Shown: positions 876 to 20,109, counted from the first letter of the stretch. The stretch is DNA of 26,210 bases from a virus (IMGVR_UViG_3300041809_000574:1-26210); one strand, 5' to 3'. Made by a program: numbers and translations. The notes: generated from the letters alone by a model not told the origin.

Positions 876-1697
876 ATGAAGCTACCTTCAAAAGAGACGA
901 TACACAACCGCTGTGGAGTCTACTGTATCAGTAATACTGTAAATGGGAAAAAGTATGTGGGTAGTTCTTTGTCTTTGTACTCCCGGCTTCAACACCATCG
1001 ACGCTACCTGCAACTACAAAAACATGAGAACCCACATCTTCAACACGCATGGGATAAGTATGGGGAGGAGCAGTTCACCATAACCATACTTGAATTCTGC
1101 AACGCCGATACTCGAATTGAAAAAGAAGAGATGTACATCACCTTTAATAACTCATTGAAAACTGGGTACAATATACGAAAACCAACAGAAGTAGGTAGAC
1201 CACCATCCCCCCGACGTGGGGTACCTTTAACCTTAGAACAAAAAGAAAAAATTTCAAACACACTGAAAGGTCGAAAAGCTGACCGTGTGGGGGTGCAAAA
1301 AGGGGCCGCGACTCGCAAACGAAATAACCACCGCCCCCTTCTAGGTAAGACTTTTTCAGATGAATGGAAACACAACCTATCTGAAAGTAAAAAGGGAAAA
1401 CCAAAACCACCGGGTTTTGGTGCTAAAATAAGCCGCGCATTGACTGGAAGAGTGCGGACGATTGAGCACTGTAACCACATCAGTGAAGGCAGGAAGGGAA
1501 TCCCCTCACCGAACAAAGGGACTAAAATGACCGAAAAACAAAAACACCACCTCTCAGAGGCACGTAGGGGGAGGGTTTGGTTATTGAACCTTGAGACTAA
1601 AGAAACTCTGTTTGTGCCCACAGCCGAGGTTGAAGCCCTGATACAAAGACAATGGGTACGATGCACAAAAAAGCTGTACCGAGAAATAAATCAATAG
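876..1697 (+). CDS. GIY-YIG homing endonuclease with NUMOD3 repeats
   Basis: 273 aa, the only convincing plus-strand protein gene here. The N-terminal GIY-YIG module shows GVYCISNTVNGKKYVGSS (residues 14-31), R37 and an acidic EKEEMYI stretch near 82-88. The rest is repeated NUMOD3-like DNA-binding motifs (KTFSDEWKHNLSESKKG and related, about 150-225). It is free-standing, inserted between RuvC and exonuclease genes, and its 3' end overlaps the convergent exonuclease by 7 bp. The SD (GTAGAGG, 862-868) can pair with CCTCCTAC (847-854), so the leader can hide the ribosome site. Confidence 0.9.
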   Translation: MKLPSKETIHNRCGVYCISNTVNGKKYVGSSLSLYSRLQHHRRYLQLQKHENPHLQHAWDKYGEEQFTITILEFCNADTRIEKEEMYITFNNSLKTGYNIRKPTEVGRPPSPRRGVPLTLEQKEKISNTLKGRKADRVGVQKGAATRKRNNHRPLLGKTFSDEWKHNLSESKKGKPKPPGFGAKISRALTGRVRTIEHCNHISEGRKGIPSPNKGTKMTEKQKHHLSEARRGRVWLLNLETKETLFVPTAEVEALIQRQWVRCTKKLYREINQ

Positions 1698-2437
1698 ACG
1701 CCTTCAGGAATTTCAATCTTTGTTACCGAAAATCCAGCCTCTTTAGCCGCCGCTTCTTCTTCAGCGAACCTATGCTCTTTAATTTTCTTCATCCAAAACT
1801 TGATATAGGAGTTGTTCTTGTCTTTGTACCAAAAATATCCGTGGTCTTTCCCCCACTGGTTGCTCTCATAAGGGATGGTGAGGCGGACGCCGATGGTGGG
1901 AATCTTGGCGTAAGCTACAACCTCTTCGATAGGATACTTATCGAGTATGGTAAGCGTAGTCATCACGTCGGAGAGGGCTTGATGGGGGAACGGGTTGAGA
2001 AACCCGTGATAGGCCGCAAGACAAGTCAACTGCTTGTTCCACTTCTTGGGGTACTCGATGTCAGTCAGTGTGTCAATCCACAACTTGCTTTCATCAAAGT
2101 CGAAGCCGCACGAAGCAATCCATGCCAGCAAAAATGGGCGGTCGCAGGTTGTGCCATTGTGAGCAACGATGACATCTGCTTGCTCATACATGTAGAGAAA
2201 TTGCCGGAGCCCTTTGACAGATTCCTTGCCGTACTTGGCGACTAACTCCAACGGGAGTTGGGTTGCTTTCAACGCCTCTTCTTCAAAGGGGGCATTCTCG
2301 GGAACCTGTACGAGGTACCCCATGGACAGCACGGCACGATGATAGTCGGTATCCCATAAAACTGCTCCAACCTCACTAATGGAGTGGAGTTTAGGATTCA
2401 ATCCAGTGGTCTCGAAGTCGATTGCAAGTAAAAGCAC
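1691..2437 (-). CDS. DEDDh 3'-5' exonuclease (DnaQ/RNase T-like)
   Basis: 248 aa. All five DEDDh catalytic residues are visible: D7 and E9 in LLLAIDFETTGL, D99 in VIVAHNGTTCDRPFLLAW, and H152 plus D157 in HQALSDVMTTL. The family removes nucleotides from 3' ends in proofreading or repair; with no polymerase domain attached this is a stand-alone exonuclease. The start is GTG 3 bp after the stop of the upstream HNH gene, and the SD-like GGGGGTGATAG lies in that gene's end. The C-terminal 50 residues beyond the exonuclease domain are unassigned. Confidence 0.85.
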   Translation of the reverse strand: MLLLAIDFETTGLNPKLHSISEVGAVLWDTDYHRAVLSMGYLVQVPENAPFEEEALKATQLPLELVAKYGKESVKGLRQFLYMYEQADVIVAHNGTTCDRPFLLAWIASCGFDFDESKLWIDTLTDIEYPKKWNKQLTCLAAYHGFLNPFPHQALSDVMTTLTILDKYPIEEVVAYAKIPTIGVRLTIPYESNQWGKDHGYFWYKDKNNSYIKFWMKKIKEHRFAEEEAAAKEAGFSVTKIEIPEGVY

Positions 2438-2440
2438 CTA

Positions 2441-3088
2441 TCACCCCCCATATTTCAAAGTCGTCTCATTGTTAATACAACGTTTTAACCAATTACAATT
2501 AGAACAAAGAAGCTGATACCCAAAAGAATTATTTAGTACCTTCTTGAGATAGGCTTCAACATGAAGCTCTTTTCTTTCGCGATAGCCCCCTCCGTTCACG
2601 TGGTCTATCTGTAATAGACGTTCATCGGTACAGCCGGTCGAGCCATCATCATTAACCCAGCGGCAGTTAGGAGAGGAGCACTTTCCTCCCATTTTCTGGA
2701 TTACCTCATGTCTAAGTTTTTGCCGCCGCCGTTGATTATTCAACGCTCGATTACTCAAATACTTCTTATCATATCTCTTCACCTGTTCTGGATGAGAAAC
2801 TAACCAATCTTTGGTGTGTTGTTGTTTCTGTTGTTTTCTTTCCTCAGGGGTTCGGTCTTCTCCGGTTCGAGACTTACTTATTTTCGCTCTCGTTTCCTCT
2901 GAATGAGACTTACCAAAGAAGGGGTTTTTCTCTCCAGTACGTTGTCTACCCATCTCTGCCAACCTATATCGTTGCTCATCCGTCTGTTTCCATCCCCGAC
3001 CCTGCGTACCCCGTTCTTTACGAGTCAATGCGGTTATCCGTGCCTTTTCTATTATCTCTGGTGTTCTAATGTACTTTCCCGCTGGCAT
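2441..3088 (-). CDS. HNH homing endonuclease with NUMOD3
   Basis: 215 aa. Residues 55-80 carry a NUMOD3 DNA-binding motif (KNPFFGKSHSEETRAKISKS). The C-terminus is an HNH module: CSSPNCRW, then LLQIDHVNGGG with the HNH histidine, then LLCSNCNWLKR, giving two CxxC-type zinc pairs around the catalytic core. It sits between the Nudix and exonuclease genes of the repair block and ends 3 bp before the exonuclease start. The ATG at 3088 follows an SD buried in a hairpin (3095-3114). Confidence 0.88.
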   Translation of the reverse strand: MPAGKYIRTPEIIEKARITALTRKERGTQGRGWKQTDEQRYRLAEMGRQRTGEKNPFFGKSHSEETRAKISKSRTGEDRTPEERKQQKQQHTKDWLVSHPEQVKRYDKKYLSNRALNNQRRRQKLRHEVIQKMGGKCSSPNCRWVNDDGSTGCTDERLLQIDHVNGGGYRERKELHVEAYLKKVLNNSFGYQLLCSNCNWLKRCINNETTLKYGG

Positions 3089-3094
3089 AAATAA

Positions 3095-3121
3095 AGCCCC
3101 CTATTAAGGGGACTCATAGTC
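3095..3121 (-). promoter_or_regulatory. Leader hairpin hiding the SD of the HNH gene, with ACTAT motif
   Basis: On the minus strand AGTCCCC pairs with GGGGGCT across the 6-nt loop TTAATA. The 3' arm is the SD of the ATG at 3088. GACTAT (3116-3121) lies one base upstream of the stem and is the recurrent motif found ahead of most homing genes in this window. Confidence 0.6.
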
Positions 3122-3145
3122 GTGTTTCAAAATTAAACCCTAGAA

Positions 3146-3913
3146 TTAGCTTTTCCCATCAATGTCGGGAGTTTTGAAACGCCATTTAGTGTGAGCAGTG
3201 TGAACTGCTTCCTTATCATACTCCAACATAGAAGTGAGCAGCATTCCAGTGTGCATCCACATAGGCTGCGGGAGTTCCTTCGAAGGGTCGAACCACTTCC
3301 ACTCTTCTACCTTCTCAGGCTCCAGCGTTTTCAGGTCTTGAGGATTGATAGCCTCCGCGATGTAGTAGAGAGTGATGTAGTGCTTACCCCGGTCGGGAAA
3401 GTAGTCATTGGTCACCTTGCCTGTGAAGTAAATGTCCTTCAAGTCAAGATTGGTCTCTTCCTTGATTTCACGCATGGCAGTAGCAAATGGGGTCTCTGCG
3501 AAATCAACCTTCCCACCCGGAATAGCATACTGACCACCACCGAGTTCTCCTTTGCGGCAACCGAGGAGAATGCACCCATTCGTGGGGTGCTGAATCACAA
3601 CACCAATTGCAACACCGGGGTACGCCATGTGAGGAACAACCGCACCAGAGGGCATAGGGATATTCAACACATCCTTGTGCCGAGCGAACAGTCCAGCAAG
3701 GCCCGTGGAAGCGGTGCATCCGTGACAGAAATAATCAATGCCGGGGGCGAGTTCCATATCCTTACCGCAATCCGGGCAAGCAGGGAAGCACGGACGCTTG
3801 CACCCTTTCGGGCACCAAGGGTCAATGTTTTGCTCGACGTTGAGTTCGCTTCCGCACTTCTGGCACTGGCTGCTGAGCCACGGGCGCTGCTTCAGGCTTT
3901 TTCTCCTGCTCAC
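3146..3913 (-). CDS. Nudix hydrolase with N-terminal zinc ribbons
   Basis: 255 aa from a GTG at 3913 that is preceded at 7 nt by AGAGGAG; an upstream GTG at 3976 (276 aa) is possible but has a weaker SD. The N-terminus has CxxC-rich zinc-ribbon segments (CQKCGS, CPDCGK, CHGC). The centre holds a Nudix box, G-x5-E-x7-REIKEET, but the usual late glycine is N (TNL instead of xGU). Nudix enzymes cleave nucleoside diphosphates linked to another moiety; phage versions often act on NTPs, NAD-type caps or alarmones, and the substrate cannot be read here. The gene starts inside the end of the winged-helix gene in another frame. Confidence 0.85.
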   Translation of the reverse strand: MSRRKSLKQRPWLSSQCQKCGSELNVEQNIDPWCPKGCKRPCFPACPDCGKDMELAPGIDYFCHGCTASTGLAGLFARHKDVLNIPMPSGAVVPHMAYPGVAIGVVIQHPTNGCILLGCRKGELGGGQYAIPGGKVDFAETPFATAMREIKEETNLDLKDIYFTGKVTNDYFPDRGKHYITLYYIAEAINPQDLKTLEPEKVEEWKWFDPSKELPQPMWMHTGMLLTSMLEYDKEAVHTAHTKWRFKTPDIDGKS

Positions 3914-4262
3914 GTTTCTTCTCCTCTTCCCGCTCCAGCCGTTCCTTCTCAACCCGCTCCAACGCTTGCTGTTCACGCTTCTTCTTGCGTGCTGGCGTCA
4001 TCAAAGGGCGAGGTCCGGGAGCATCCTCCGGGTCAACTATGTCTATTATACCATGGGCTTCCAGCCTGTCCATAAGAGCCACAGACCCCGCATACGAAAG
4101 ATGGAATTCCTTCATCATTTCAAAGCATGAAGCGTGCTTACGCTTTTGGACAAAACTGATGACCTCGGTAAAGGGGTCTATTGGGGGTGCTACATACTCA
4201 GCAACAACAAGCGCCGTGCTGTTGTTCTCAGGAACAATCTCAACATCAATTTTTTTCTTCAT
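3822..4262 (-). CDS. Winged-helix protein resembling the FtsK gamma domain, with charged tail
   Basis: 146 aa from the ATG at 4262, preceded by AGAAAGAAG; a longer start upstream would lie in the GIY-YIG gene. Residues about 30-90 (DPFTEVISFVQKRKHAS, then SYAGSVALMDRLEAHGII) match the layout of FtsK-gamma-type winged helices that bind short DNA motifs. The C-terminal third is a Lys/Glu-rich, probably helical tail. Its start overlaps the stop of the upstream GIY-YIG gene (ATGA) and its end overlaps the Nudix gene by about 90 bp. Role inferred as DNA binding only. Confidence 0.65.
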   Translation of the reverse strand: MKKKIDVEIVPENNSTALVVAEYVAPPIDPFTEVISFVQKRKHASCFEMMKEFHLSYAGSVALMDRLEAHGIIDIVDPEDAPGPRPLMTPARKKKREQQALERVEKERLEREEEKKREQEKKPEAAPVAQQPVPEVRKRTQRRAKH

Positions 4263-5083
4263 ATTACTTCTTTCTGAAAAACCAAAGGCATCGAACACCC
4301 ACACCCTTTAGTGTTACCGCTTCTGAGATTATCCCCGGCTGCTATAAAGAAACTCCCACAATGGCATCTACACCGCCAGCGTGCCTTACCCGATTTACTA
4401 CTCTCCGCTCTTTCTAATACTGTGACTCCATTGATAACCTGTCCAATCATATCCACCCTATTCAAGGCAGCTCGGCCCATCAGTGAGGTACTAAACTTCT
4501 TACGGGTCTCTTTTGAGTGTGTATACCCTTCTGGTAACCCTGAATGATGATTAGCTAAAGCTTTCTGCCAAGCTTCTTGTTGTTTCTCTGACCGGGGGGT
4601 AGCTCGAATGGTTTCCGCCCTCTTCGCTATGTTCTCGGGAAGTTGGCAAAGTTCAAGACTCTTCAATTGAGCCTCATTTTTAGGGAGGGCTTTCAACTTT
4701 GCACAAGTCTCTGGAGAGACAACGCGACCTGTCATTCTCTCCCGCATCATCTGTTTCCACTCATCTGTGTGGGTACCTGTGAATCCTTCCCCGCCCTTGC
4801 AGATGTTGTAACCTATCTCTGGGTTGCGGGTATCGTAGAGTGCGATGAGTAATCGCTCTAAGCGGTCAAGTTCTTCCTTTGTTTGGATGTTAGAAAAGAG
4901 GGGCTCTATTGACCAAACCTCTTTGGGATGTTTACGCATGGAGTTATACAGCCGTGATTGCCCACCCCTGTGCTTGCTGGCATCTGACAGTTTAGTTTGA
5001 AGGTATTTCTTTAAGCTGTTTCCTTTGTGTTGTCCAATATAAATCTTGCCTGTAACTGTGTTGGTGATAACGTATATGAACAC
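4259..5083 (-). CDS. GIY-YIG homing endonuclease with NUMOD3 and C-terminal zinc finger
   Basis: 274 aa, GTG start. GIY-YIG core at the N-terminus (FIYVITNTVTGKIYIGQHKG). NUMOD3-like repeats follow (THTDEWKQMMRERMTGR; HSKETRKKFSTSLMGR). The C-terminal 60 residues form a zinc-finger-like module WRCRCHCG...KGCGCS, the same type found in two HNH proteins here, suggesting module swapping between nuclease families. The SD AAGGGGG lies 5 nt before the GTG, inside a perfect 14-bp hairpin. The stop overlaps the ATG of the winged-helix gene. Confidence 0.9.
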   Translation of the reverse strand: MFIYVITNTVTGKIYIGQHKGNSLKKYLQTKLSDASKHRGGQSRLYNSMRKHPKEVWSIEPLFSNIQTKEELDRLERLLIALYDTRNPEIGYNICKGGEGFTGTHTDEWKQMMRERMTGRVVSPETCAKLKALPKNEAQLKSLELCQLPENIAKRAETIRATPRSEKQQEAWQKALANHHSGLPEGYTHSKETRKKFSTSLMGRAALNRVDMIGQVINGVTVLERAESSKSGKARWRCRCHCGSFFIAAGDNLRSGNTKGCGCSMPLVFQKEVI

Positions 5084-5084
5084 A

Positions 5085-5130
5085 CAAACCCCCTTGTAAT
5101 TGATACTGTCTACAAGGGGGTTTGATAGTT
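5085..5130 (-). promoter_or_regulatory. Perfect 14-bp hairpin hiding the SD of the GIY-YIG gene, with AACTAT motif
   Basis: Arms 5085-5098 and 5111-5124 are perfect inverted repeats with a 12-nt loop. Read on the minus strand, the 3' arm contains AAGGGGG, the SD of the GTG at 5083. AACTAT (5125-5130) abuts the 5' arm. The hairpin lacks a following T-run, so a leader switch fits better than a terminator. Confidence 0.7.
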
Positions 5131-5137
5131 AAAAAGG

Positions 5138-5974
5138 TTAGGACATATCATCAATGTCTTCGAGCGAGGCTTCTTTCCCGCTTGCTGCTTGCTGACCTGC
5201 CAACAGAGCACGCCATTCGATGACAGTCAACTTGCGGCCCAGCTTGTGAATCAACTTCTTGCCGCCATCCTTGACGAACTTCTGAGCCGCAGCTTCAACC
5301 TCAGCCGCGAGTTCAGGGTTCTGCTTCCACTTCGCCTTCAACGAACGGGCTACAAACTCATAGCCAATCCCGCTGGTCTTCTTGGACATCACGATGTCAA
5401 TGTCATACACCGAAGAGTCTTCAGGAGCCAGCCCGGAAACCGAGCGGAAGTTGGAGCGGGAAAGGTCAACGTAACCAATCTCCCATTCAATCGGGGTGCC
5501 CTTTTCGTACACGCCGGTCTTGGCATCGGCGTTCACGTAGTGAAGAGCGAGGGCGACAACGTGTGCCATTCCATCCTGCTCAAGCTTCTGGCAGCAGTAG
5601 GGAATTTCGTCTTCAGTCTTGGTCGGGGCGCAGCGGAAAGTACCCTTCTTGTCCTTGGTGTCAACGAAGTGAGACTTCGCGGCCTTGGGAGCGAGGAAAG
5701 GCAGGAGTGCAAAACGTACAACCTTGTCCTTATCCGGGCGGATGCGGTTGAGACCGTCACCCTTTGCCATCAGCTTCTGGTCGCCGAATTCAACGTCAAG
5801 ATTCTCGTCGTCGTCTGCTGCGGCCTTGGTGTGGGACTTTGCTGCTGGGACCTCTCCGTCGTCTTCCAGTTCATCCTTGGCGGGTGCAGTGGCGGCAGCG
5901 GTGGTTGTGGTTGTTGTTGGCTTGCTGGAAGCCACGGGTAGTTCGTCCAATTCGTCATTCTCGAATTGCTTCAT
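5138..5974 (-). CDS. Candidate ssDNA-binding protein
   Basis: 278 aa from the ATG at 5974, which has GTGAGGA at 7 nt; an upstream ATG (6022) has no SD. Residues 1-70 are low complexity (Thr/Ala runs, then acidic). The folded core begins near MAKGDGLNRIRPDKDKVVRF and holds an aromatic and basic pattern (KSHFVD, GTFRC, IPYCCQKL, IEWEIGYVDLSRS). The chain ends in an acidic tail, EASLEDIDDMS, as in many phage and bacterial SSBs, where the tail recruits partners. No motif is decisive; SSB is an inference from tail, size and position beside HU-like, resolvase and exonuclease genes. Confidence 0.5.
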   Translation of the reverse strand: MKQFENDELDELPVASSKPTTTTTTAAATAPAKDELEDDGEVPAAKSHTKAAADDDENLDVEFGDQKLMAKGDGLNRIRPDKDKVVRFALLPFLAPKAAKSHFVDTKDKKGTFRCAPTKTEDEIPYCCQKLEQDGMAHVVALALHYVNADAKTGVYEKGTPIEWEIGYVDLSRSNFRSVSGLAPEDSSVYDIDIVMSKKTSGIGYEFVARSLKAKWKQNPELAAEVEAAAQKFVKDGGKKLIHKLGRKLTVIEWRALLAGQQAASGKEASLEDIDDMS

Positions 5975-6054
5975 AGGTGTTTCCTCACGTTTCGGTATCT
6001 TAGTTTCGGTTTCGAGTGTCATTACTGCGTTGGGTGTTACATTGCTGAACGAGG

Positions 6055-6393
6055 TTACTCACTAGCTACAGCAGCAGCCTCATCCTTCATGACTTCGAGT
6101 TGCCGAAGCTTCCCGAGAGCCACAAACTTTACCTTACGTTTGGCGTTGGTCATCTTAGTCTCGCCCGTGAAAGGTATCTTTCTATAGATACCCAGTTTGT
6201 GGCGAATACTGAACTTGCCAAAGCTGTTTAATTTCATGGAAAAGTTGTCAGTGCCGAGATTGTCAATCAGAGTGTCTTCGATGCACGTAATGACCTTGTT
6301 GACGAGTTCTTCGGCTTCCTTCTTCGTGGGTAGGTTAAGAGCCTGTTGGACTCGACCTATCAGTAATTCTCGGCCTATGCGTGAATTTGCCAT
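6055..6393 (-). CDS. HU/IHF-family DNA-binding protein
   Basis: 112 aa. The pattern follows HU proteins: N-terminal helices with KKEAEELVNKVITCIEDTL, a strand LNSFGKFSIRHKLGI, a basic arm and a KVKFVALGKLRQL end. HU-type dimers bend DNA and compact or organise replication and recombination complexes. The ATG follows GAGG at 7 nt. It lies upstream of the candidate SSB gene and downstream of a strong terminator, so it probably heads a separate transcript. Confidence 0.8.
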   Translation of the reverse strand: MANSRIGRELLIGRVQQALNLPTKKEAEELVNKVITCIEDTLIDNLGTDNFSMKLNSFGKFSIRHKLGIYRKIPFTGETKMTNAKRKVKFVALGKLRQLEVMKDEAAAVASE

Positions 6394-6482
6394 TGACTAA
6401 CCTCAAACCTATGGTGCGCGAAGTACGCTATTCACCATCTAATACTGAACTCTGTAGCTGTAATTCCGCAGTATTTACGGCA

Positions 6483-6516
6483 AAACAGGAGACCCGCCGT
6501 AGCGGGTCTCCTGTTT
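6483..6516 (-). terminator. Intrinsic terminator after the secreted-protein gene
   Basis: Perfect 15-bp stem (6483-6497 with 6502-6516) and a CGTA loop; on the minus strand the stem ends in TTT and runs into TTTTG. It sits 15 bp past the stop of the gene ending at 6531 and separates it from the HU-like gene. Confidence 0.85.
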
Positions 6517-6530
6517 ATTTAGAGGGAGGG

Positions 6531-7031: not shown

Positions 7032-7066
7032 GTGAGTTATTCTCCAAGAGCCAGTGGGCTCTCCTA

Positions 7067-7882
7067 CTAATACTGAGATTTCCAGATGTTCGAGATTCGA
7101 AAAGCGCAGATGTAAGGGTCAGACCGTTTGGACCGCCACAGGTCAAGTAGTTCAATCGTGTCGTGTACCTTACCATAGTCAAGCTTCAATTGCTTGAAAA
7201 ACTTGACCTTCGAAGGAGAAGCATACGCAATGAACCCCGCCTTCTTCAAGGTAGAGTCCTCATCTACTTGGACTAAGGTGTAGACAGTAAGGTCAAGGTA
7301 CAGACTGTGGAGCCGATGCTCCGGGGTTACACCGGGAACGTTGAACCATAGATTGTTTTCCCATGGCTGGGGCCAACGCTTAGACTCAGGCGGCATAGGC
7401 CCGGTCAGAAGCCACACAGCCGTCCATAGAGCCACGCGGATGTCCTCAATGGTGCCTGACGTTGCCAAGGTATCCGCCAGCCTCTCTACGAGGTCTTTAT
7501 CGGGCTTGTCTATGTCCAGCAGGGAGGCGGCGTACCGCACAATCGCGTTCGCTCCGGCTGAGCCCCTCGTAATGGGGTCGAGTGACCAGAACCCTGTGTT
7601 GTCTCTAACTTGTGGGGATAATGTGGAGGCTTCTTTAGCCGAGAGGATGCGGAACAGCTTTGGCGTTCCATCCACCAGTAGATTGGCATCGGTTATCGTA
7701 TCAGCAAACACACAGGGGAGCCCTAGAATCTGTTCAGCCAACCGTTGCTGAACGAAGTCCTCACCCACAAGAATGTTGAACCGTTTGTGTACCTTGGAAG
7801 CCAGCATGACGGGTACGGGGTTGAATTCAGAGACTCTCCTTCCCGGTCGAAACACTGACTTCTTCTTGTTTGTACTTGGCAA
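7067..7882 (-). CDS. Phage protein of unknown function
   Basis: 271 aa from a TTG at 7882 that has GGAGGAG just upstream; an ATG at 7807 lacks an SD. The protein is soluble, with a Trp-rich middle (WTAVWLLTGPMPPESKRW) and a basic C-terminus (LDLWRSKRSDPYICAFRISNIWKSQY). No catalytic motif or known fold was recognised. Its first 56 bp overlap the end of the upstream endonuclease VII-like gene in another frame, which suggests that gene arrived by insertion at this gene's 5' end. Confidence 0.7.
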   Translation of the reverse strand: MPSTNKKKSVFRPGRRVSEFNPVPVMLASKVHKRFNILVGEDFVQQRLAEQILGLPCVFADTITDANLLVDGTPKLFRILSAKEASTLSPQVRDNTGFWSLDPITRGSAGANAIVRYAASLLDIDKPDKDLVERLADTLATSGTIEDIRVALWTAVWLLTGPMPPESKRWPQPWENNLWFNVPGVTPEHRLHSLYLDLTVYTLVQVDEDSTLKKAGFIAYASPSKVKFFKQLKLDYGKVHDTIELLDLWRSKRSDPYICAFRISNIWKSQY

Positions 7883-8342
7883 GGTACTCCTCCGCTTTCT
7901 TGCACCAACCTAATACTGCTTCCACACGAGCAAGAGCAACATTACATGCTTGGCACAAAAGACCACGAACTCTCCCAGTCGCATGGTCATGGTCTACAGC
8001 GAGATTTTTTCTAGTTGGAGGATTACCACAAAGGGCACAAAGACCGTGTTGTTCTTTGAATAGGGCGTCATGCTCAGTCGGGGTCAACCCATACTGCTTC
8101 AATTCATACTTACGCTTAGAGGATTCTACCCTTGCATGACAGGCGCTATCTTCCCGCTGTCGCTGAAGCTTTTTCTGAGTGCGTTCCCACATTCGTTCAG
8201 GGTGTTCTTTTCGATATAGGCGGTCGTCTTCCCTTATACATGACTTGCAACGATTGACATAACCATCTTTCGATGCGGTATTTCGATAAAAGTGCTTGTC
8301 GTCTAAAGGTAAAAGATTTTTACATCTGACACATGATTTCAT
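7827..8342 (-). CDS. Endonuclease VII-like HNH nuclease
   Basis: 171 aa from the ATG at 8342. An N-terminal zinc module (CVRCKNLLP then CKSC) is followed by a basic helix and the endonuclease VII signature: CALCGNPP, LAVDHDHATGRVRGLLC, CNVALARVEAV. T4 gp49 of this family resolves branched DNA, but related HNH genes are common mobile elements. The leader hairpin (8351-8393) and the overlap with the next gene favour a homing role here; a cellular role as resolvase cannot be excluded, though a RuvC-like gene is also present. Confidence 0.85.
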   Translation of the reverse strand: MKSCVRCKNLLPLDDKHFYRNTASKDGYVNRCKSCIREDDRLYRKEHPERMWERTQKKLQRQREDSACHARVESSKRKYELKQYGLTPTEHDALFKEQHGLCALCGNPPTRKNLAVDHDHATGRVRGLLCQACNVALARVEAVLGWCKKAEEYLAKYKQEEVSVSTGKESL

Positions 8343-8350
8343 AGTGCTAC

Positions 8351-8393
8351 CCCTGATAAAGGTATCAATAGTCAAATGATACCTTTATCAGGG
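8351..8393 (-). promoter_or_regulatory. Perfect 17-bp leader hairpin with ACTAT in its loop
   Basis: Arms 8351-8367 and 8377-8393 are perfect inverted repeats with a 9-nt loop. On the minus strand the loop contains GACTAT (8368-8373), and the 3' arm ends in ATCAGGGG, the SD of the ATG at 8342. A transcript started from the loop motif would lack the 5' arm and have a free SD. Confidence 0.7.
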
Positions 8394-8399
8394 TGGTGA

Positions 8400-8756: not shown

Positions 8757-8785
8757 GAGATTCCTCCTATAAAGGAACCCGGTAT

Positions 8786-9732: not shown

Positions 9733-9782
9733 AGTCTATATTACTCGTAGTGAAGACAGTTCGTGAAGTAAAACGTAAGTCA

Positions 9783-9812: not shown

Positions 9813-9831
9813 TATCAAACTTTAGACAAAT

Positions 9832-10199: not shown

Positions 10200-10868
10200 T
10201 TAGCATGTAACTCTTGAATTTCTCTGTCCCGCAAATTTACAAGCACAAGATTTGGAGCAGTATTTCCTCCCCATCGTGTTTACTCTGGTCTGAAATTTGG
10301 AACCACACATCGGGCATTCACGCTCCACAACTGGGGTTCGCATTTTACCTAAATTAGCCGCTCTAATTTTCTCCCCTACTTCTGGAGGTCTTACCCTTCC
10401 GGTTAAGGCCAAAGACACCCTATCTCTTGTACCCTGACTCACTGCGTGCCCCTTGCTTGCGGCTCCAATTTTACTTTTTGTTTCTGAAGAAAGAACATGA
10501 CCTGTCAATGCCTGACTAATCCTGTCACACCATTCCTGAGAGAATCGCTTACCCTTATTGGCACCCGGCCAACCTATAGGTACACCATCACCACCGGGTG
10601 TCATGTTATACCCCTTTAGGACACTGTTGGCCGATGCAATGCATTCAATTTCCTTATGCCTAGCGTCTGCTTCCGTCAAACCATCATACAGAATACTGAG
10701 CACAAAAGTGTCAGCCCCATACTTTCTAATGGCTCTGTGAAAGTGCAGGGTACTGCCTTTCTTTACTGAATAAAGGTGTGCCTTCCAGCGACTTGCGAGG
10801 GTTCGATGCGTTTTCCCTATATACACTTTGCCAGTAATCGTGTTTTGAATTTGGTATACCCGGAACAT
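10200..10868 (-). CDS. GIY-YIG homing endonuclease with NUMOD3 repeats and zinc finger
   Basis: 222 aa from the ATG at 10868; longer starts run into the upstream gene. GIY-YIG core FRVYQIQNTITGKVYIGKTH, then RWKAHLYSVKKG and the acidic EIECIAS. NUMOD3-like repeats (RFSQEWCDRISQALTG; SSETKSKIGAASKG; PPEVGEKIRAANLG) fill 110-175. The C-terminus is a zinc finger CPMCGSKF...YCSKSCAC. The SD is poor (TTAGG) and no clear leader hairpin is seen, unlike most homing genes here. It starts 17 nt after the upstream stop. Confidence 0.88.
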   Translation of the reverse strand: MFRVYQIQNTITGKVYIGKTHRTLASRWKAHLYSVKKGSTLHFHRAIRKYGADTFVLSILYDGLTEADARHKEIECIASANSVLKGYNMTPGGDGVPIGWPGANKGKRFSQEWCDRISQALTGHVLSSETKSKIGAASKGHAVSQGTRDRVSLALTGRVRPPEVGEKIRAANLGKMRTPVVERECPMCGSKFQTRVNTMGRKYCSKSCACKFAGQRNSRVTC

Positions 10869-13348: not shown

Positions 13349-13360
13349 TCTTCTCTCCAC

Positions 13361-13450
13361 CTACAGTATACCCAACTCGCCGCTGTTTTGGCTAGTTTTT
13401 GGGGAATTTTTTCTCTTTTCCCATGCCTTTTTAAGTTTTTCACTCATCAT
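13361..13450 (-). CDS. Possible tiny basic protein or nuclease relic
   Basis: 29 aa from tandem ATGs at 13450, basic and helical (MSEKLKKAWEKRKNS). The upstream reading frame stays open for about 35 codons. The stretch resembles the NUMOD3-type helices in homing nucleases, and an AACTAT motif lies 28 bp upstream (13478-13483). No good SD. It may be a real micro-gene or debris between the helicase and the gene ending at 13503. Confidence 0.25.
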   Translation of the reverse strand: MMSEKLKKAWEKRKNSPKTSQNSGELGIL

Positions 13451-13502
13451 AGCTCGAAAAATGGGGTCGTGATACTGATAGTTTGTTTCTTCTGGGGAGA
13501 CA

Positions 13503-14171: not shown

Positions 14172-14268
14172 GTCCTATAATACCGCGTTACTTGAAACTC
14201 AAGATTGCTAGGAATGGCCCTCTCACAAAATGGTTAAAACAAACAAACTCCCAATTATAAGCACCAAC

Positions 14269-14520
14269 TTAATAAGCATAGATTTCATGTGTGTCTCCAT
14301 CTTGAGGGGGTACATCTGCTAAAATCGTGAGCGTGTTTCCACTGATTGAGTAGTATGCCCCATAAATTCTCTTAACACCATTCACAAAGTAGAACGATGC
14401 TGTCGGGGTTGTCGGTGTGGCTGACAACGTATAAGACGTGCCCCCATCGGGGTCAGTAGGAGTAGTAGTGAAAGGAGGACCAAATCCCCCGCCGCCGACG
14501 CCACCTACTGAGCTAATCAC
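14269..14520 (-). CDS. C-terminal part of the tail-fibre-like protein, split off by a frameshift
   Basis: 83 aa. Gly-rich linker GGVGGGGFGPPFTTTPT followed by a small beta domain ending THEIYAY. It continues, in the neighbouring frame, the repeat that breaks off in the upstream reading frame near 14622. It has no SD of its own; its GTG merely overlaps the upstream stop. Best read as the distal end of one fibre protein. Confidence 0.6.
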   Translation of the reverse strand: MISSVGGVGGGGFGPPFTTTPTDPDGGTSYTLSATPTTPTASFYFVNGVKRIYGAYYSISGNTLTILADVPPQDGDTHEIYAY

Positions 14521-15473
14521 ACCACCTGAAATAGTGATTGTCGTGCCATCGGGCTTGACGAGACCAAGCGTGCTTGTAGTGGCGGTTGGAATCGTATAGG
14601 TCGAAGCGGCGGAAACAGTCGCTTGGCATTTACAGTGACACTCGCGGGAGCATAGGTGCCCACATTGGAGTTGACAGTTGCAAGTGTGGCTACTTTACTT
14701 CCAGAGCCTGAACTTGTGGTGACATCACCAGTGAGTTGAGTAATCCCTCCCGCTGCACTGCTGATAACCCCACCTGAGATTGTGATAGTTGTTCCATCAG
14801 GCTTCACCAAACCAAACGCTGAACCCGTAGCCGTGGGAACACTAATCTGCCCACTCACATTGACATCAATCGTTACCCCATCTGGCTTCACAATACCCGC
14901 TACAGAGGTTGTGGCGATAGGCACACTCACAGCTTCAGCAAGAGGGTACGAGACGAAGGGGAATTGAACATAGCTATTCAACGTCCCCCCAACCTGATAG
15001 ATGTAACCCAACGGTTGAACCAAATCAGGAGGAGTGGGAAGCGCCAGTTGGACCGAACCGGGAGATGTGGTGCTCAAATAAACGGGGGCTCCCACATCAC
15101 TCGGACTAAACCCGGTTACGAATGGACAGTTAACTAGCCCCTGAGTGTTGACAGTTACAGTGGCTCCACTAGTAGCATCCGCAGCTACAAACCCCATGGC
15201 GGGAAGGTTATCCGTGCTCAGAGCAGAAGCCAGTCGAGCCGAAACATTGACGCCGGTATAATAAAGGTTGACAAGCTGTCCTGCGGTAAGGTTTACTGCG
15301 GCGGTGGCTGTAATAGGGGTGGAGGTAGAGAAGAAGCTACTATCCAGAGCACCTTCGGCGTTCAACACAATCGGTGCATATGCAGTGGCTGGGCTTCCAG
15401 TATATGTAGCCACACCGTCAGTGATGTCGATGAGGTTCGTAGTTTGGTTGAAGATGCAAAGCTTTGTAGACAT
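14517..15473 (-). CDS. Tail-fibre-like repeat protein, frameshifted near its end
   Basis: 318 aa as read. Two or more copies of a fibre repeat are visible (SVAGIVKPDGVTI; SAFGLVKPDGTTITISGG), and ASVTVNAK is typical of phage tail fibres just before the usual QVTAAS segment. At about 14622 the frame changes: the last 37 residues are Pro/Arg-rich and unlike the rest, while the neighbouring frame there reads ATVSAASTYTIPTATT and TSTLGLVKPDGTTITISG. Adding one base there restores a single protein of about 400 aa with the 14269-14520 part. The ATG has GAGG at 8 nt and overlaps the stop of the HNH gene (TAATG). Confidence 0.75.
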   Translation of the reverse strand: MSTKLCIFNQTTNLIDITDGVATYTGSPATAYAPIVLNAEGALDSSFFSTSTPITATAAVNLTAGQLVNLYYTGVNVSARLASALSTDNLPAMGFVAADATSGATVTVNTQGLVNCPFVTGFSPSDVGAPVYLSTTSPGSVQLALPTPPDLVQPLGYIYQVGGTLNSYVQFPFVSYPLAEAVSVPIATTSVAGIVKPDGVTIDVNVSGQISVPTATGSAFGLVKPDGTTITISGGVISSAAGGITQLTGDVTTSSGSGSKVATLATVNSNVGTYAPASVTVNAKRLFPPLRPIRFQPPLQARLVSSSPMARQSLFQVV

Positions 15474-16048
15474 TATCGCGTCCTCGAACTGAATTTAGCC
15501 AAATTGGTTACGAGCAAAGTTAGCTCCGCAAGAGTAGCATTACTCTTTATCGTGTTTGCGCGATGACTAATCACCCAAACATTCCCCTTTACATACCCTT
15601 GAGTTGCATCAAGGCGGTCTAGTGATGGGCTATTCGCTGAAAGAACCCCCTCTGCAACATGCAACTCCACGCCAAGAAGGGGGCAGTGTGTGGGGACTTG
15701 AATATCCCCCAACTCCAAATCAAACTTTAAGCCAGAAACCTTAGCCCTACGCCGAGCAGACTGCCAGAGGTTGTATTCAGCCGTTCCAGTCATACCGTGA
15801 GTTCTAAACCGTTTGGATGTTTGCTCACTCCTAACACAACCACAGCTTATACTTGCACCTGATTTAAGGCTCTTTCCGCAAACAACCTTCTCCGTTCCAC
15901 ACTTACAATGACAGAGCCAATAAGGACTCTCATGACGACTCTCAACATACTGTTTTACAGTCCAGTTTCCATACTGATTCCCTGTCAAATCTGACCGTAA
16001 CGTCTCACTTATCTTTTTCCTACAAGCAGCACTTTGTGTTCTCACCAT
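15473..16048 (-). CDS. HNH homing endonuclease with N-terminal zinc-finger module
   Basis: 191 aa from the ATG at 16048. The N-terminus has a zinc-finger-like module (YWLCHCKCGTEKVVCG...ISCGC). The nuclease half matches the 181-aa HNH protein at 18074: KFDLELGDIQVPTHCPLLG, then NSPSLDRLDATQGYVKGN and VISHRANTIKSNAT. The SD AGAGG abuts the 3' arm (GTCAAAAAA) of a leader hairpin. The stop overlaps the tail-fibre start as TAATG, so insertion kept the downstream start intact. Confidence 0.85.
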   Translation of the reverse strand: MVRTQSAACRKKISETLRSDLTGNQYGNWTVKQYVESRHESPYWLCHCKCGTEKVVCGKSLKSGASISCGCVRSEQTSKRFRTHGMTGTAEYNLWQSARRRAKVSGLKFDLELGDIQVPTHCPLLGVELHVAEGVLSANSPSLDRLDATQGYVKGNVWVISHRANTIKSNATLAELTLLVTNLAKFSSRTR

Positions 16049-16096
16049 TTTTTGACCTCTGCTAAAAGTTTTCAAAAGTCAAAAAACCATATAGTT
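16048..16096 (-). promoter_or_regulatory. Leader hairpin of the HNH gene plus AACTAT motif
   Basis: Nine-bp arms 16048-16056 and 16078-16086 (TTTTTTGAC/GTCAAAAAA) with a 21-nt loop. On the minus strand the 3' arm covers the end of the SD (AGAGGTC) and runs up to the ATG. AACTAT is at 16091-16096, 4 bp upstream of the stem. Confidence 0.55.
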
Positions 16097-16113
16097 ATCA
16101 GAGATTAAAATAG

Positions 16114-16794
16114 CTATCTGGTTCTCGGGGGCCAACTAACTCTCTTGTTTTTCCTTTCTGCCAAAGCTGGGAATTCTTTATCAGCATCACAATCTCGAAT
16201 AACATTTAGTGGATTCGGCGGGGTCTCGTGGTGGTCTTGCGGCTGAGCGGTATCGTCAATGTTTTTCTGGTTCTCCCGAGTAGCAAGTTCTCCCGAGCCT
16301 TCAAACACTTCTCCACTGATGTCATATCCATAGGCAGTTTTCTCATTGAAACTGGAAAACCTCTGCCGTGGAGATGTATTCGCCGCCCGTGTCAATGTCT
16401 CTAAGACACCATGAACCTTTGCCAAGGAATAGGACTGGTACAAAACCGCAGAAGAGTAGTCCCCCGCGTGGGCGTACATTACAGAGATTTCGAAGTCATG
16501 GCGTGCATTTTGCATGTACCGCCTAACCATTGGCATCCAAGGAACCTGTGGAACCACGTCTAACAAACTCATGACCAATTCACGAAGCTTGTTCGATGTC
16601 TGTGCAAACAGGAATTCATCTTGCGATGGGTCCTTGTACTCTTCCCAAAGATAGGCGATGTCGTCGTAGACATCCCGCAACCACCCGACCTCGCTAGGCC
16701 ATGTTTGACCTTGAAGTAACTCGTTTCTAGGTCTAAACTTAGTCTTCAAGGGACACACAGAGGATGCGGCTAATTTTTGTAGTTTTAGGCGCAT
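16114..16794 (-). CDS. Phage protein of unknown function
   Basis: 226 aa. Helical, with a Trp/Tyr-rich middle (WLRDVYDDIAYLWEEYKDPS; VPQVPWMPMVRRYMQNARHD) and a disordered, charged C-terminal 60 residues. The ATG has GGGGAG about 10 nt upstream and overlaps the HNH stop (TAATG). It lies beside the tail-fibre-like gene, so a virion or tail-assembly role is possible but unsupported. Confidence 0.65.
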   Translation of the reverse strand: MRLKLQKLAASSVCPLKTKFRPRNELLQGQTWPSEVGWLRDVYDDIAYLWEEYKDPSQDEFLFAQTSNKLRELVMSLLDVVPQVPWMPMVRRYMQNARHDFEISVMYAHAGDYSSAVLYQSYSLAKVHGVLETLTRAANTSPRQRFSSFNEKTAYGYDISGEVFEGSGELATRENQKNIDDTAQPQDHHETPPNPLNVIRDCDADKEFPALAERKNKRVSWPPRTR

Positions 16795-17549
16795 TATTTT
16801 ACACTCCCCACTCTTGTACGAAACTCAACTACCCTATCTAAGTAACCAATAAACGTTGTGTATGGCAACTCACGTTTCAGCCGGTTGCATTCGGTGCAGC
16901 AAGGAACAACATTCAAGGACGTGTATCCCTGTGAGTTGTCTTTCCTGTCCACCCCTGTGTATTGAAACCCCTCACATGTTGCTCTCTTACGAAGGTTGGC
17001 TGGAAGAGTCTGAGAGGGAGTCGAACCACAGTAATGACAACGCTCCTGTATAAGAGCAAAAAATGTCTCTTTATCGAGAGCCCACACCAATTTCCGCACC
17101 TTGGCTGCTGTTTTATACCTACTTAAAACATAGTTTTTAGCTGCTTGACCAGCAGGAAGTGCTGATTTAGTAAAGCTTCTAAATTTATTCTCTTTTGCTA
17201 AACACCCACAACTCTTAACTTGTCCTCTTCGAAGATTGAGCCCTGTTGTAATGTGGTCGTTCCCACAATCGCATTTACACAACCATGTGGCCCCACTTTT
17301 ATGGGGATTGACTACCCGCTTAACCACAGTAAGCCTAAAAAACCGCTCTCCAAGCAAGTCTATGGTGGGCTTCTTAGTTAAAACCTCATTCCTGTAGCAT
17401 CCACAACTTTTTGTATCCCCTCGGCGAAGGCTACTCTCCCGTACAACTACCCTGCGCCCACAATCACATAGAGCAGCCCACATAGAATTTCCCTTTACTG
17501 ATTCCACCTTTTCAACAACCTGTAGACGACCAAACCTACTCCCAACCAT
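16794..17549 (-). CDS. HNH homing endonuclease with two zinc-finger modules
   Basis: 251 aa. Two tandem copies of the DNA-binding finger module: WAALCDCGRRVVV...KSCGC (about 24-50) and WLCKCDCGNDHIT...KSCGC (about 90-117). The C-terminal HNH shows CHYCGS, YTGVDRKDNSQGYTSLNVVP and CTECNRLKRELP. SD AGAGGT lies before the ATG at 17549; no convincing leader hairpin. The stop overlaps the next gene's ATG (TAATG). Confidence 0.88.
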   Translation of the reverse strand: MVGSRFGRLQVVEKVESVKGNSMWAALCDCGRRVVVRESSLRRGDTKSCGCYRNEVLTKKPTIDLLGERFFRLTVVKRVVNPHKSGATWLCKCDCGNDHITTGLNLRRGQVKSCGCLAKENKFRSFTKSALPAGQAAKNYVLSRYKTAAKVRKLVWALDKETFFALIQERCHYCGSTPSQTLPANLRKRATCEGFQYTGVDRKDNSQGYTSLNVVPCCTECNRLKRELPYTTFIGYLDRVVEFRTRVGSVK

Positions 17550-17690
17550 ACACTACCTCTATACAATGAGTTAAAAAGTTCGATTTTTTATCTAGTTGAC
17601 ATTTGGTGCTATGGTTTCGCAACTATCAGCCCCCTATAAGAGGCTACTGCCTATATGAAGGTGAATATCGAGTAGCTAACATGCAGTACA
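17550..17690. other. Leader/intergenic region without a gene
   Basis: Noncoding. On the minus strand it holds CCTCTTATAGGGGGCT (near 17630-17645), which looks like the SD-containing leaders elsewhere in the window but has no start codon after it, and ATAGTT/AACTAT in inverted orientation near 17621. It may be a vestigial leader. Confidence 0.35.
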
Positions 17691-17693
17691 GAC

Positions 17694-17774
17694 AAAACTC
17701 CCACTCGTGTGGGAGTGACCCTCCACAGGATGTGAGGGCAAAATGGGCTAGGAAGCTCTGTTCCTAGCCCATTT
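17694..17774 (-). terminator. Three consecutive stem-loops, terminator-like
   Basis: Minus-strand order: a 13-bp stem (17762-17774 with 17741-17753) ending in TTTT directly after the stop of the 100-aa gene; a stem CCCTCACA with one bulge (17719-17738); and an 8-bp stem GTGGGAGT (17697-17716) followed by TTTTG. The first and third have the form of intrinsic terminators; the middle may act as spacer or processing site. Confidence 0.7.
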
Positions 17775-18077
17775 CTATGCCCATTCGTCAACGTGTTGGA
17801 TGGGCTCTACTGGGGCTGGCAAGGGGGCGACAACCTCTGGCGGGGCTGGCTCAGACGCTAACTCGAACTTACCTTCAATGATTCGGTTAGGAAGATAGCG
17901 GAGACGCACTCCGGGTTCAGCCGGGTTGTCAGGTTGCTGCTGTACTTGGCCTGTTGGGGATAGGTCTCCAAGGATGTGGGCAGGGATGAATAGCTCGTAT
18001 CCACCCTGCACCTGTTTACCATACATCCGACATAGCGAGGCTACGACCGGAGTAAAGTTCGGCATCACGTTAATCAT
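17775..18077 (-). CDS. Small Pro-rich phage protein, function unknown
   Basis: 100 aa. A compact N-terminal half (VVASLCRMYGKQVQGGYELF) is followed by a Pro/Glu/Ala-rich tail (EPAPPEVVAPLPAPVEP). The ATG overlaps the stop of the HNH gene as ATGA, indicating coupled translation. A terminator array follows immediately. Confidence 0.6.
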   Translation of the reverse strand: MINVMPNFTPVVASLCRMYGKQVQGGYELFIPAHILGDLSPTGQVQQQPDNPAEPGVRLRYLPNRIIEGKFELASEPAPPEVVAPLPAPVEPIQHVDEWA

Positions 18078-18619
18078 GAACGCATATGCATCAGTATGGC
18101 TTCCAACTCAGGCACTGTAGCATTACTCTTCAAGATATTAGCTCGATTAGAGATGATGTGTATGTTATCCCGCGTGTAGCCTTTACTGTTGTCCTTTCTG
18201 TCTAACGATGGAGAGTTGGGTGACACCCACAAACTCCCACCCTTTCCAACACCGTAAATCAAGGGGATTCCAAGAACAGGGCAATGGGTGGGTATAACCA
18301 AATCAGCAAGTGTGAGGTTGAACTCCAACCCCTTTTGTTTAGCTCTTAATCGAGCCTTCGACAGCATACGCTGCGTACACGCATTCATGTTCTTGCGATA
18401 GCTGCAATCTTTACACCTAGAGTCCAGCCCGTCCATACCGCACAGGAACCTGTAGAACTCCACTCGTGGTTTTGATTTCTTACACTGGCTGCATGTCTTC
18501 TCCCCCACAACATCGTAGGGGTTGTGAGAACTCCAATGCAGTTTGAATTCCCCCTGCCGTTTTTTGACGTAGGAGCGAATCTTCGCTTGGTTGTCAATCC
18601 GCCACTGCTTAGTGGACAT
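18074..18619 (-). CDS. HNH homing endonuclease
   Basis: 181 aa. Central zinc pairs CSQCKKSKPRVEFYRF and CKDCSY, then a nuclease half paralogous to that of the gene at 15473: FNLTLADLVIPTHCPVLGIP, NSPSLDRKDNSKGYTRDN, ISNRANILKSNATVPEL. The SD TAGGGGGG is the loop of a perfect hairpin and the ATG lies in its 3' arm. The stop overlaps the 100-aa gene start (ATGA). Confidence 0.85.
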   Translation of the reverse strand: MSTKQWRIDNQAKIRSYVKKRQGEFKLHWSSHNPYDVVGEKTCSQCKKSKPRVEFYRFLCGMDGLDSRCKDCSYRKNMNACTQRMLSKARLRAKQKGLEFNLTLADLVIPTHCPVLGIPLIYGVGKGGSLWVSPNSPSLDRKDNSKGYTRDNIHIISNRANILKSNATVPELEAILMHMRS

Positions 18620-18653
18620 CTGTAAACCCCCCTATTTACAGATACCCATAGTT
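18618..18653 (-). promoter_or_regulatory. Leader hairpin hiding the start codon, with AACTAT motif
   Basis: Perfect 9-bp arms 18618-18626 and 18635-18643 (ATCTGTAAA/TTTACAGAT), with the SD TAGGGGGG as the entire 8-nt loop. The first two bases of the ATG are paired. AACTAT is at 18648-18653, 4 bp upstream. Confidence 0.65.
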
Positions 18654-18654
18654 G

Positions 18655-19392
18655 TTAAATTTCAAATTCGGCTGAAATATACCGAGTCCACTTTCTTTCT
18701 TGTGGGTAGCCATAGGGGGAGCAGACTACTCTAGTTTCACCTAGAGTATAGTCGCAAGTAAGGTGCGTGTGTCCGTGAACCCATAGCCTTGGCTTCTTGT
18801 CCAAGATGAGGTCAGTCTCATCGGAGACAAAGAACCGATTGATGTCGCTGCCAGCGAACATTGGGTGAGTGCTCTTCGGTGATGGAAGATGATGAGACAA
18901 CACAACCGTCTCCGAGCGAATCAGCTTACGACCATTCTCACGGAACTCTGCGTTCTTCTGGTACACCCACTTGTGGATGTCTCCGATGAGGTTGAAATCA
19001 TTCAACTGACGCTCGTAAAGTTGATTGAGTGGGTCATCTGGAAACCACATAGTCCCACCATAAAATTCAACTCCATCAATGGTGGTCGCAGAATTATCAA
19101 GGAGATGACAATTGATGGGGAGCACTTCGAGAATGCGGGACTCAACTTCATGCCCGTACTTAGCCCCATAGAATTCGTGGTTGCCAAAGGTGAGTAAGGT
19201 GTGCCTCGCTTTGGACGCCAAAAACTCAAAAATACCTCGCATCTCAACTTTGGGTTGATGGGCTGGTACAACGATATCTCCCGGAAGCAGAAGAAAGTCG
19301 AGCTTGGGGGTGAAAACTAATGTCTTCAACATGTCCATTGCATCCCCATAGTAAAATTCAGTGTGGAGGTCCGAAAGTAGCTGTGCCTTCAT
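18655..19392 (-). CDS. Calcineurin-like metallophosphoesterase
   Basis: 245 aa with the full metal-binding series: D8 and H10 in LLSDLHTE, GD near 39 in LLLPGDIV, GNHE at 70-73, SHHLPSP near 165, and HGHTH near 210. The family hydrolyses phosphoesters; phage members may act on DNA ends, cyclic nucleotides or RNA 2',3'-phosphates, and the substrate is not readable. SD GAGGAG lies 4 nt before the ATG, which overlaps the stop of a possible small upstream ORF. Confidence 0.85.
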   Translation of the reverse strand: MKAQLLSDLHTEFYYGDAMDMLKTLVFTPKLDFLLLPGDIVVPAHQPKVEMRGIFEFLASKARHTLLTFGNHEFYGAKYGHEVESRILEVLPINCHLLDNSATTIDGVEFYGGTMWFPDDPLNQLYERQLNDFNLIGDIHKWVYQKNAEFRENGRKLIRSETVVLSHHLPSPKSTHPMFAGSDINRFFVSDETDLILDKKPRLWVHGHTHLTCDYTLGETRVVCSPYGYPQERKWTRYISAEFEI

Positions 19393-19496
19393 TTAACTCC
19401 TCGTTTCATATATTCAACCACTTTCTCCATCTCATCCACCGCTGGCGGCGTCTCTGTAGGCTTGACGTAAACGGTGGAATTCAGGGTCGATGACAC
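19389..19496 (-). CDS. Possible 35-aa upstream ORF coupled to the phosphoesterase
   Basis: GTG-started frame ending with TYVKPTETPP-like and VDEMEKVVEYMKRGVK residues. Its TGA overlaps the phosphoesterase ATG (ATGA), as expected for a coupled leader ORF, but it overlaps the 48-aa gene and lacks a good SD. Tentative. Confidence 0.25.
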   Translation of the reverse strand: MSSTLNSTVYVKPTETPPAVDEMEKVVEYMKRGVK

Positions 19497-19578
19497 CCTC
19501 GAACGAACTATATTGTCTGAAGGCATAGTCGAAGCCCTCATACTCTACTTTATTGCGGACATCTTGTAGGGATTCCAT
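19432..19578 (-). CDS. Small conserved-looking phage protein, function unknown
   Basis: 48 aa: aromatic and acidic, with VEYEGFDYAFRQYSSFEGV followed by DPEFHRLRQAYRDAASGG. This EGFDYAF...S.F..I.D..FH.LR..Y pattern is familiar from small hypothetical phage proteins. The SD is weak. It lies directly downstream of the tRNA candidate at 19599. Confidence 0.55.
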   Translation of the reverse strand: MESLQDVRNKVEYEGFDYAFRQYSSFEGVIDPEFHRLRQAYRDAASGG

Positions 19579-19598
19579 GCAGAGGTAATACTGAAGTT

Positions 19599-19671
19599 TG
19601 GAGCGAGAGACGGGATTTGAACCCGCGACCTTCGGCTTGAAGCCACTGCTCTACCGCTGAGCTACTCTCGC
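19599..19671 (-). tRNA. tRNA with probable UCA anticodon (opal-reading?), weak anticodon stem
   Basis: Acceptor GCGAGAG/CTCTCGC, D-arm GCTC/GAGC, T-arm with GTTTGAAT and an encoded TCCA end are sound. The only U33-consistent loop is CTTCAAG, giving anticodon UCA, but the stem AGTGG/CCGAA pairs at only about three positions and base 26 is missing. It is either an opal suppressor/UGA-reading tRNA or a decaying one. Sequence outside the anticodon arm resembles the Gly(GCC) tRNA at 24299. Confidence 0.65.
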
Positions 19672-19676
19672 ATACT

Positions 19677-20069
19677 CTACTTCACTTTCCAAACTGCATG
19701 TCTTTTTCGGTGGCATACAGCACAAAGTAATACGCACTTCTCTAATTCTACCACAATCCGCGCCCAACTTCGATTGATGAGGTTGGATATAGCCCCATCC
19801 TTTGTACTTGGGTCGAGATGGTGGAAGTCATAAACATCAGGAATATCCACAAGACCACAGTCTAGGCACTTACCACCCAAGTGTGCGACAGCTTGTCTCT
19901 TTCGTGCTTCACGTCGCCCATAAGCATATTTTATTCGACAAGGTATACAGTGGCTGTCCCTACCCACCCATGATTTATCAGTGACCTCGCTACGCTGTAG
20001 GGCTGCGTAGAACTCTACAGCAGGTTTAGGGAGATTACAACGCTTACATATTTTGATGTCTGTGTCCAT
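19677..20069 (-). CDS. HNH homing endonuclease
   Basis: 130 aa from the ATG at 20069, chosen because TTAAGGAG lies just upstream; a longer frame would start inside the leader hairpin. N-terminal zinc pair CKRCNLPKPAVEFY and CIPCR, then HNH core CLDCG, YDFHHLDPSTKDGAIS, CVLLCAVCHRKRHA. It ends 5 bp from the tRNA at 19599. Confidence 0.88.
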   Translation of the reverse strand: MDTDIKICKRCNLPKPAVEFYAALQRSEVTDKSWVGRDSHCIPCRIKYAYGRREARKRQAVAHLGGKCLDCGLVDIPDVYDFHHLDPSTKDGAISNLINRSWARIVVELEKCVLLCAVCHRKRHAVWKVK

Positions 20070-20070
20070 A

Positions 20071-20109
20071 GAACTCCTTAACATATTCTGTTTAAAGAGT
20101 TCCATAGTT
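20071..20109 (-). promoter_or_regulatory. 11-bp leader hairpin burying AAGGAG, with AACTAT motif
   Basis: GAACTCTTTAA (20102-20092) pairs with TTAAGGAGTTC (20081-20071), with one G-U pair and a 10-nt loop. The whole SD of the ATG at 20069 is in the 3' arm. AACTAT is at 20104-20109, directly upstream and after a T-run. Confidence 0.7.

Follow-up and report, generated by a model that had tools for sequence, protein, structure and literature searches.

Six of the ten free-standing homing-type nuclease genes in a 26.2-kb linear IMG/VR virus record (the window, i.e. the whole stretch of 26,210 nucleotides analysed here) have their Shine-Dalgarno (SD) sequence or start codon within a leader hairpin, and such hairpins are over-represented before nuclease genes of related phages. 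We propose, with a probability of roughly 0.78 for the explanation as a whole, that each mobile nuclease cassette carries its own leader as a filter for transcript origin, combining a hidden start with an embedded promoter. On read-through RNA from upstream phage genes, the 5' arm would pair with the SD/start region and block ribosome binding. A phage promoter element is predicted to sit in the loop or on the 5'-arm side, and RNA from this promoter would begin at or just before the SD, lack the 5' arm and so be translated. In this way nuclease production would be uncoupled from the invaded operon and would await the firing of the cassette's own promoter, which is probably a late one.

The ten nucleases recognized in a sequence-only reading of the window were borne out by Pfam and PHROGs, and comprise three GIY-YIG, one NUMOD3/HNH, one EndoVII-type and five HNH-type genes. 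HEG_1 (876..1697, plus strand; GIY-YIG) is oriented opposite to the others, which lie on the minus strand: HEG_2 (2441..3088; NUMOD3/HNH-type homing nuclease, Pfam NUMOD3 3.7e-15, PHROG homing endonuclease), HEG_3 (4259..5083; GIY-YIG homing nuclease with a GTG start, Pfam/PHROGs), HEG_4 (7827..8342; EndoVII-type, Pfam Endonuclease_7 1.9e-19), HEG_5 (10200..10868; GIY-YIG, Pfam), HEG_6 (15473..16048; HNH-type, phrog_3322/374), HEG_7 (16794..17549; HNH-type, phrog_374), HEG_8 (18074..18619; nuclease, phrog_3322), HEG_9 (19677..20069; HNH, phrog_2255) and HEG_10 (23700..24155; HNH, within the tRNA cluster of the record, PHROGs). Gene starts were called with our own script from codon and SD scores, and a few are expected to be wrong; HEG_4, which the caller had passed over in favour of an overlapping frame, was entered manually. 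The window shares synteny with two contigs, G001 (67 kb) and G006 (231 kb). Among annotated phages the closest one found, with 38% helicase identity, is Tunturiibacter phage Tunturi_5, isolated on an Acidobacteriota host, the culturable Tunturiibacter (PMC11924767), and our guess is that the window phage has a similar host. No GIY-YIG gene was seen in Tunturi_5. The helicase search of viral_contigs returned a single close relative, and tRNA was the only Rfam family found in the window. One tRNA (19599-19671) has the anticodon TCA, called SeC by ARAGORN, and is possibly a UGA-reading tRNA. The 3' part of the HEG_4 ORF holds CAGTATTAG (7867-7930), a likely promoter of the downstream gene 7067-7855, an arrangement like that of T4, where promoters are embedded in seg genes.

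Folding located the SD or start codon in a hairpin for the genes starting at 3088, 5083, 8342, 16048, 18619 and 20069. The sequence-only reading had counted seven such leaders out of ten, including that at 876, but the only repeat there is a weak one of 5 bp (z -0.2, and p=1.0 when the upstream sequence is shuffled with the SD fixed), so that this leader is discarded as an example and the count is six. The inverted repeats that the sequence-only reading had placed at 5085-5124 (14 bp), 8351-8393 (17 bp), 18618-18643 (9 bp, with the SD as loop) and 20071-20102 were all recovered at these positions. The hairpins, all on the minus strand, are those of HEG_2 (3094..3115; 9 bp, SD AGGGGG in the 3' arm, p=0.002), HEG_3 (5081..5127; the 14 perfect pairs being extendable, SD in the 3' arm), HEG_4 (8351..8393; 17 perfect pairs, the 3' arm ending with the SD AGGGG), HEG_6 (16043..16091; 18 pairs with one interruption, start codon in the 3' arm), HEG_8 (18613..18648; ATG in the 3' arm) and HEG_9 (20066..20107; 16 pairs), with dinucleotide-shuffle z scores of -1.6, -5.3, -6.5, -4.9, -3.0 and -5.3, respectively. 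Shuffling only the sequence upstream of a fixed SD gave p<=0.003 for each of the six. Hairpins over the SD or start codon were absent on folding of the leaders at 10868/10910 (HEG_5), 17549 (HEG_7, which has an AACTTT/TATAG element) and 24155 (HEG_10). The folding comparison that the sequence-only reading had named as a refuting test came out in its favour: the leaders of nuclease genes form more stable folds than ordinary ones do, helices of -11.5 kcal/mol or stronger being found in 6 of 10 nuclease leaders versus 1 of 30 others in the window (p=3e-4); small hairpins lie near the SD of two ordinary genes (8756 and 20551).

The excess extends to related phages. In fifteen gene-called contigs, 81 nuclease genes collected by iterated HMMs have stronger RBS helices than 1270 other genes (p=1e-8) and differ from them in RBS opening energy (p=5e-7). 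Eleven related contigs gave helices reaching -10 kcal/mol in 23 of 47 intact nucleases versus 46 of 526 genes (p=4e-11), although the pooled fifteen-contig value is the fairer one because the eleven were picked after the results had been seen. The excess comes from G000, G006, G021 and G013 and is absent in G017 and G015. Two of the strong-helix "other" genes proved to be nucleases as well, namely G021_92 (HNH) and G001_78 (phrog_4645 endonuclease, with LAGLIDADG-like motifs by eye). Conservation of structure rather than sequence across the GIY-YIG, HNH and EndoVII-like families, as first read from the window, is thus extended to a LAGLIDADG-like nuclease of a relative. The strong hairpin is missing in about half of the intact nucleases of the related phages, and EndoVII-type genes of unrelated phages are not enriched (51 leaders, 12% versus a 14% background at -8 kcal/mol); it is therefore not a universal trait of homing nucleases, and a universal property of HNH/EndoVII genes is ruled out by these 51 leaders. 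A single query with the EndoVII gene of G017 returned, besides itself, fragments only.

Covariation was sought in the GIY-YIG family of HEG_3, for which a profile scan yielded 80 loci with 54 distinct leaders, and it was seen, so that the second refuting test named in the sequence-only reading likewise came out in its favour. The median helix of these 54 leaders is -11.8 kcal/mol versus -4.5 with the upstream sequence shuffled, and 59% of them versus 4% of shuffled ones reach -10 kcal/mol. Swapping 5' arms among family leaders roughly halved the mean helix energy (from -12.6 to -6.7 kcal/mol), and swapping them among the ten nuclease leaders of the window reduced it from -13.0 to -4.8, whereas 1137 other genes showed no arm dependence (-4.7 versus -4.6). 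In one leader subset (A3) 97% of the cells are paired, versus 31-52% with the partner slid, and three pairs have changed on both sides, i.e. by compensatory changes; in the subset with GACTTTC-type leaders (A2) the arm swap replaced pair counting because MAFFT shifts the 5' arms by one column. Sense helices are stronger than their antisense counterparts both for the family (p=2.6e-6) and for strong nuclease leaders (p=7e-4), a bias absent from other genes (p=0.6) and expected of RNA but not of a DNA dyad, which indicates that selection acts on the RNA. This bears directly on the idea that the inverted repeats act at the DNA level, as operators bound by a dimeric repressor or by the nuclease itself. 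I-TevI does bind an operator over its late promoter (PMC2988022) in an autorepression of this kind, but the arms here differ wholly between genes and between orthologues while pairing is kept through G-U, and together with the strand bias this makes the operator explanation highly improbable.

Comparison of insertion sites revealed that the hairpin arrives with the gene. Neither nuclease nor hairpin is present at the HEG_4 and HEG_6 sites of G001 and G006 or at the HEG_8 site of G006, and from these three empty sites we conclude that the hairpin travels with the nuclease. Decayed copies in G001 (contig L009) keep their leader hairpins: a broken HEG_3 copy (~49,550-49,760) has a different perfect hairpin, and a deletion remnant of HEG_2 (~50,870-50,990) retains its own with a U-G to C-G change. 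These sites also weigh on the possibility that the hairpins serve the upstream gene as intrinsic terminators and lie beside the nuclease start by chance. In L154, L158, L165, L178 and L225 a GC-rich stem and then a T run come before the ATG, CTTTATTT follows the HEG_2 stem, and a similar stem without a nuclease occupies the HEG_2 site of G006, so the stem at that site may have pre-existed. Nonetheless, terminator-like leaders make up at most 10 of the 41 strong family leaders, some of them being weak calls, most stems run to the ATG without a T run, the stem is missing at the empty sites mentioned above, and termination needs neither an SD in the arm nor a promoter in the loop. As a general account of the hairpins termination is unlikely, though in up to those 10 leaders a block of transcription could matter as much as one of translation.

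The second component of the proposed filter is the promoter. K-mer counting identified GTATTA-like motifs as enriched upstream of genes, GTATTA reaching 1.64/kb in sense versus 0.14 in antisense upstream of ordinary genes of G000 and G001, and 3.28 versus 0.33 in a 41-kb stretch of Tunturi_5. In ten Tunturi_5 genes and nine G006 genes the first base of GTATTA precedes the ATG by exactly 12 nt, which is where a -10 element would stand in leaderless genes. The mRNAs of the many Tunturi_5 (L239-L254), G006 and G015 genes with this spacing are probably leaderless. Using these genes as calibration, the predicted transcript start was set 12 nt downstream of the motif. GTAT[TC] is correctly placed in the loop of 22 of the 41 strong family leaders, and in nearly all 22 it starts about 2 nt past the 5' arm and puts the predicted start at the SD (e.g. 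ggaggttcaa followed by ATG), so that the nuclease's own RNA would lack the 5' arm. Motifs at matching positions were found in the window by inspection, all on the minus strand: GTATCA in the HEG_3 loop (5101..5106; by the GTATTA calibration, predicted start at AGGGGGTTTGT followed by GTG), GTATCA ending the HEG_4 5' arm (8377..8382; predicted start in the loop) and GTATCT within the HEG_8 hairpin (18640-18645).

A GTATTA-like motif is lacking in HEG_2, HEG_6 and HEG_9, which would depend on a weaker element, [AG]ACT[AT]T, of whose promoter function we are less sure. In nuclease leaders this element peaks at -31 to -35 (46.9 versus 5.7 per 1000 positions). Within the window it occurs on the minus strand as GACTAT at the foot of the HEG_2 5' arm (3116..3121; a candidate late promoter part), as AACTAT upstream of the HEG_3 hairpin (5125..5130) and as AACTAT in the HEG_9 5' arm (20104-20109). 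The earlier statement that the arms share no sequence holds for the arms as such, but this short element is found repeatedly, either immediately upstream of the 5' arm or within it. Near-identical copies of tggtagcagcttgctggctcatgccagcc lie at 20107-20145 and 20583-20615, upstream of HEG_9 and of the gene 20168-20548. The composite RACTWY-N5-13-TNWAG, with a spacing peak of 10, is present in 14 of 68 nuclease leaders, 16 of 1137 others and 24 of 12458 coding windows; the other genes carrying it include a tail fibre gene (G006_81) and several that look structural by eye, which suggests, though weakly, a late class.

Another possibility is that late genes of these phages have the hairpin in general, with the nucleases simply using late promoters. 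The same layout occurs in a few non-nuclease genes (e.g. G015_5, lysozyme-like by eye, W01_5 and G004_58), and T4 e and soc do likewise (PMC3014915, PMC2988022). Most non-nuclease genes with the [AG]ACT[AT]T layout, however, have weak helices, and the lack of arm dependence in the 1137 other genes argues in the same direction; we regard this explanation as improbable, slightly more so than termination. RBS hairpins as strong as those of the nucleases precede, besides the three genes just named, L006/W01 11381 (Tunturi_5 gp205), and one gene of this strong-hairpin non-nuclease set is annotated as an ADP-ribosyltransferase; these are possibly late genes controlled like T4 gene e.

A transcript-origin filter has precedents in T4-type phages. 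The RBS of I-TevI, I-TevII and I-TevIII is held in a stable hairpin that forms only on early or middle read-through RNA, and the position of a late promoter leaves the 5' part out of late RNA (PMC2988022, PMC3014915). Free-standing HNH and GIY-YIG genes, Aeh1 mobE and T4 segB, also combine an RBS hairpin with a late promoter (PMC2988022), and T4 e, soc and 49 are hidden by a hairpin on early RNA and escape through a late promoter (PMC3014915). The analogy with I-TevI and MobE drawn in the sequence-only reading is strengthened by the promoter-like element inside the hairpin, and the window cassettes would work like these T4-type nucleases, the step from structure to repression being argued from sequence. 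Several differences are evident. I-TevI, I-TevII and I-TevIII are intron-encoded, whereas the cassettes described here are free-standing, lie outside T4-like phages and are many per genome; mobE and segB are isolated T-even cases, whereas here the hairpin is present in about half of a phage group's intact nucleases and covaries across orthologues; e, soc and 49 are phage genes and not mobile cassettes; and the T4 late promoter is TATAAATA, in contrast to the GTATTA-like and [AG]ACT[AT]T motifs. The cassettes thus differ from the T4-type ones in phage group, promoter motif, number per genome and range of nuclease families. Such leader control outside T4-type phages was not found in the literature searched, which covered few subscription journals; the RBS-hairpin arrangement is seen here outside T4-like phages, in several nuclease families of a group of soil phages.

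A different structure was encountered in a separate phage group, G017 (L129-L134) and its relatives, where leaders of HNH-type nucleases have an 8-12 bp stem whose loop is complementary to the downstream SD region. This is a fresh observation that was not set up as a prior test. The candidate H-type pseudoknot joins a 7-nt loop, CCNNNAA, to the SD region UUNNNGG-AGG, and it covaries between leaders and in an orthologue pair (L255, L256, L258, G017): the L256 orthologue, 80% identical, has CCUGAAU/AUUCAGG versus CCAUUAA/UUAAUGG in L255. Candidates precede 5 of 13 called nucleases and 1 of 134 other genes in G017, the latter resembling the start of an AP2/HNH nuclease. A wider scan retrieved more cases before nuclease-like proteins in G017, L256 and L258, the exceptions being alternative start calls and two unrelated low-scoring matches. 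The loop complement averages 6.7 nt versus 3.2 when swapped, in twelve leaders chosen because they match. No pseudoknots were found among nucleases of the window's own clade. In Aeromonas phage 25, seg43 has a stable hairpin directly upstream of the SD, which it does not include (PMC2988022); unlike the G017 loops its loop has no SD complement, so it is rejected as a hidden pseudoknot. It is tempting to speculate, at somewhat better than even odds, that free-standing homing cassettes have repeatedly and independently evolved ways to hide the start from read-through RNA, in the soil phages studied here by a hairpin that embeds a promoter, and on HNH nucleases of the G017 group by a pseudoknot between loop and SD whose stems and loops covary.

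The proposal is directly testable, since the host of the nearest cultured relative is culturable and the leaders are short enough for reporters. Homing nucleases land in host operons and have no control over the transcription of these. If our explanation is correct, a selfish gene brings its own rule on which RNA is translatable, whatever operon it enters, which would help to account for one genome's tolerance of ten such genes within 26 kb, and unrelated phages and several nuclease families would have arrived at the solution known from T4.
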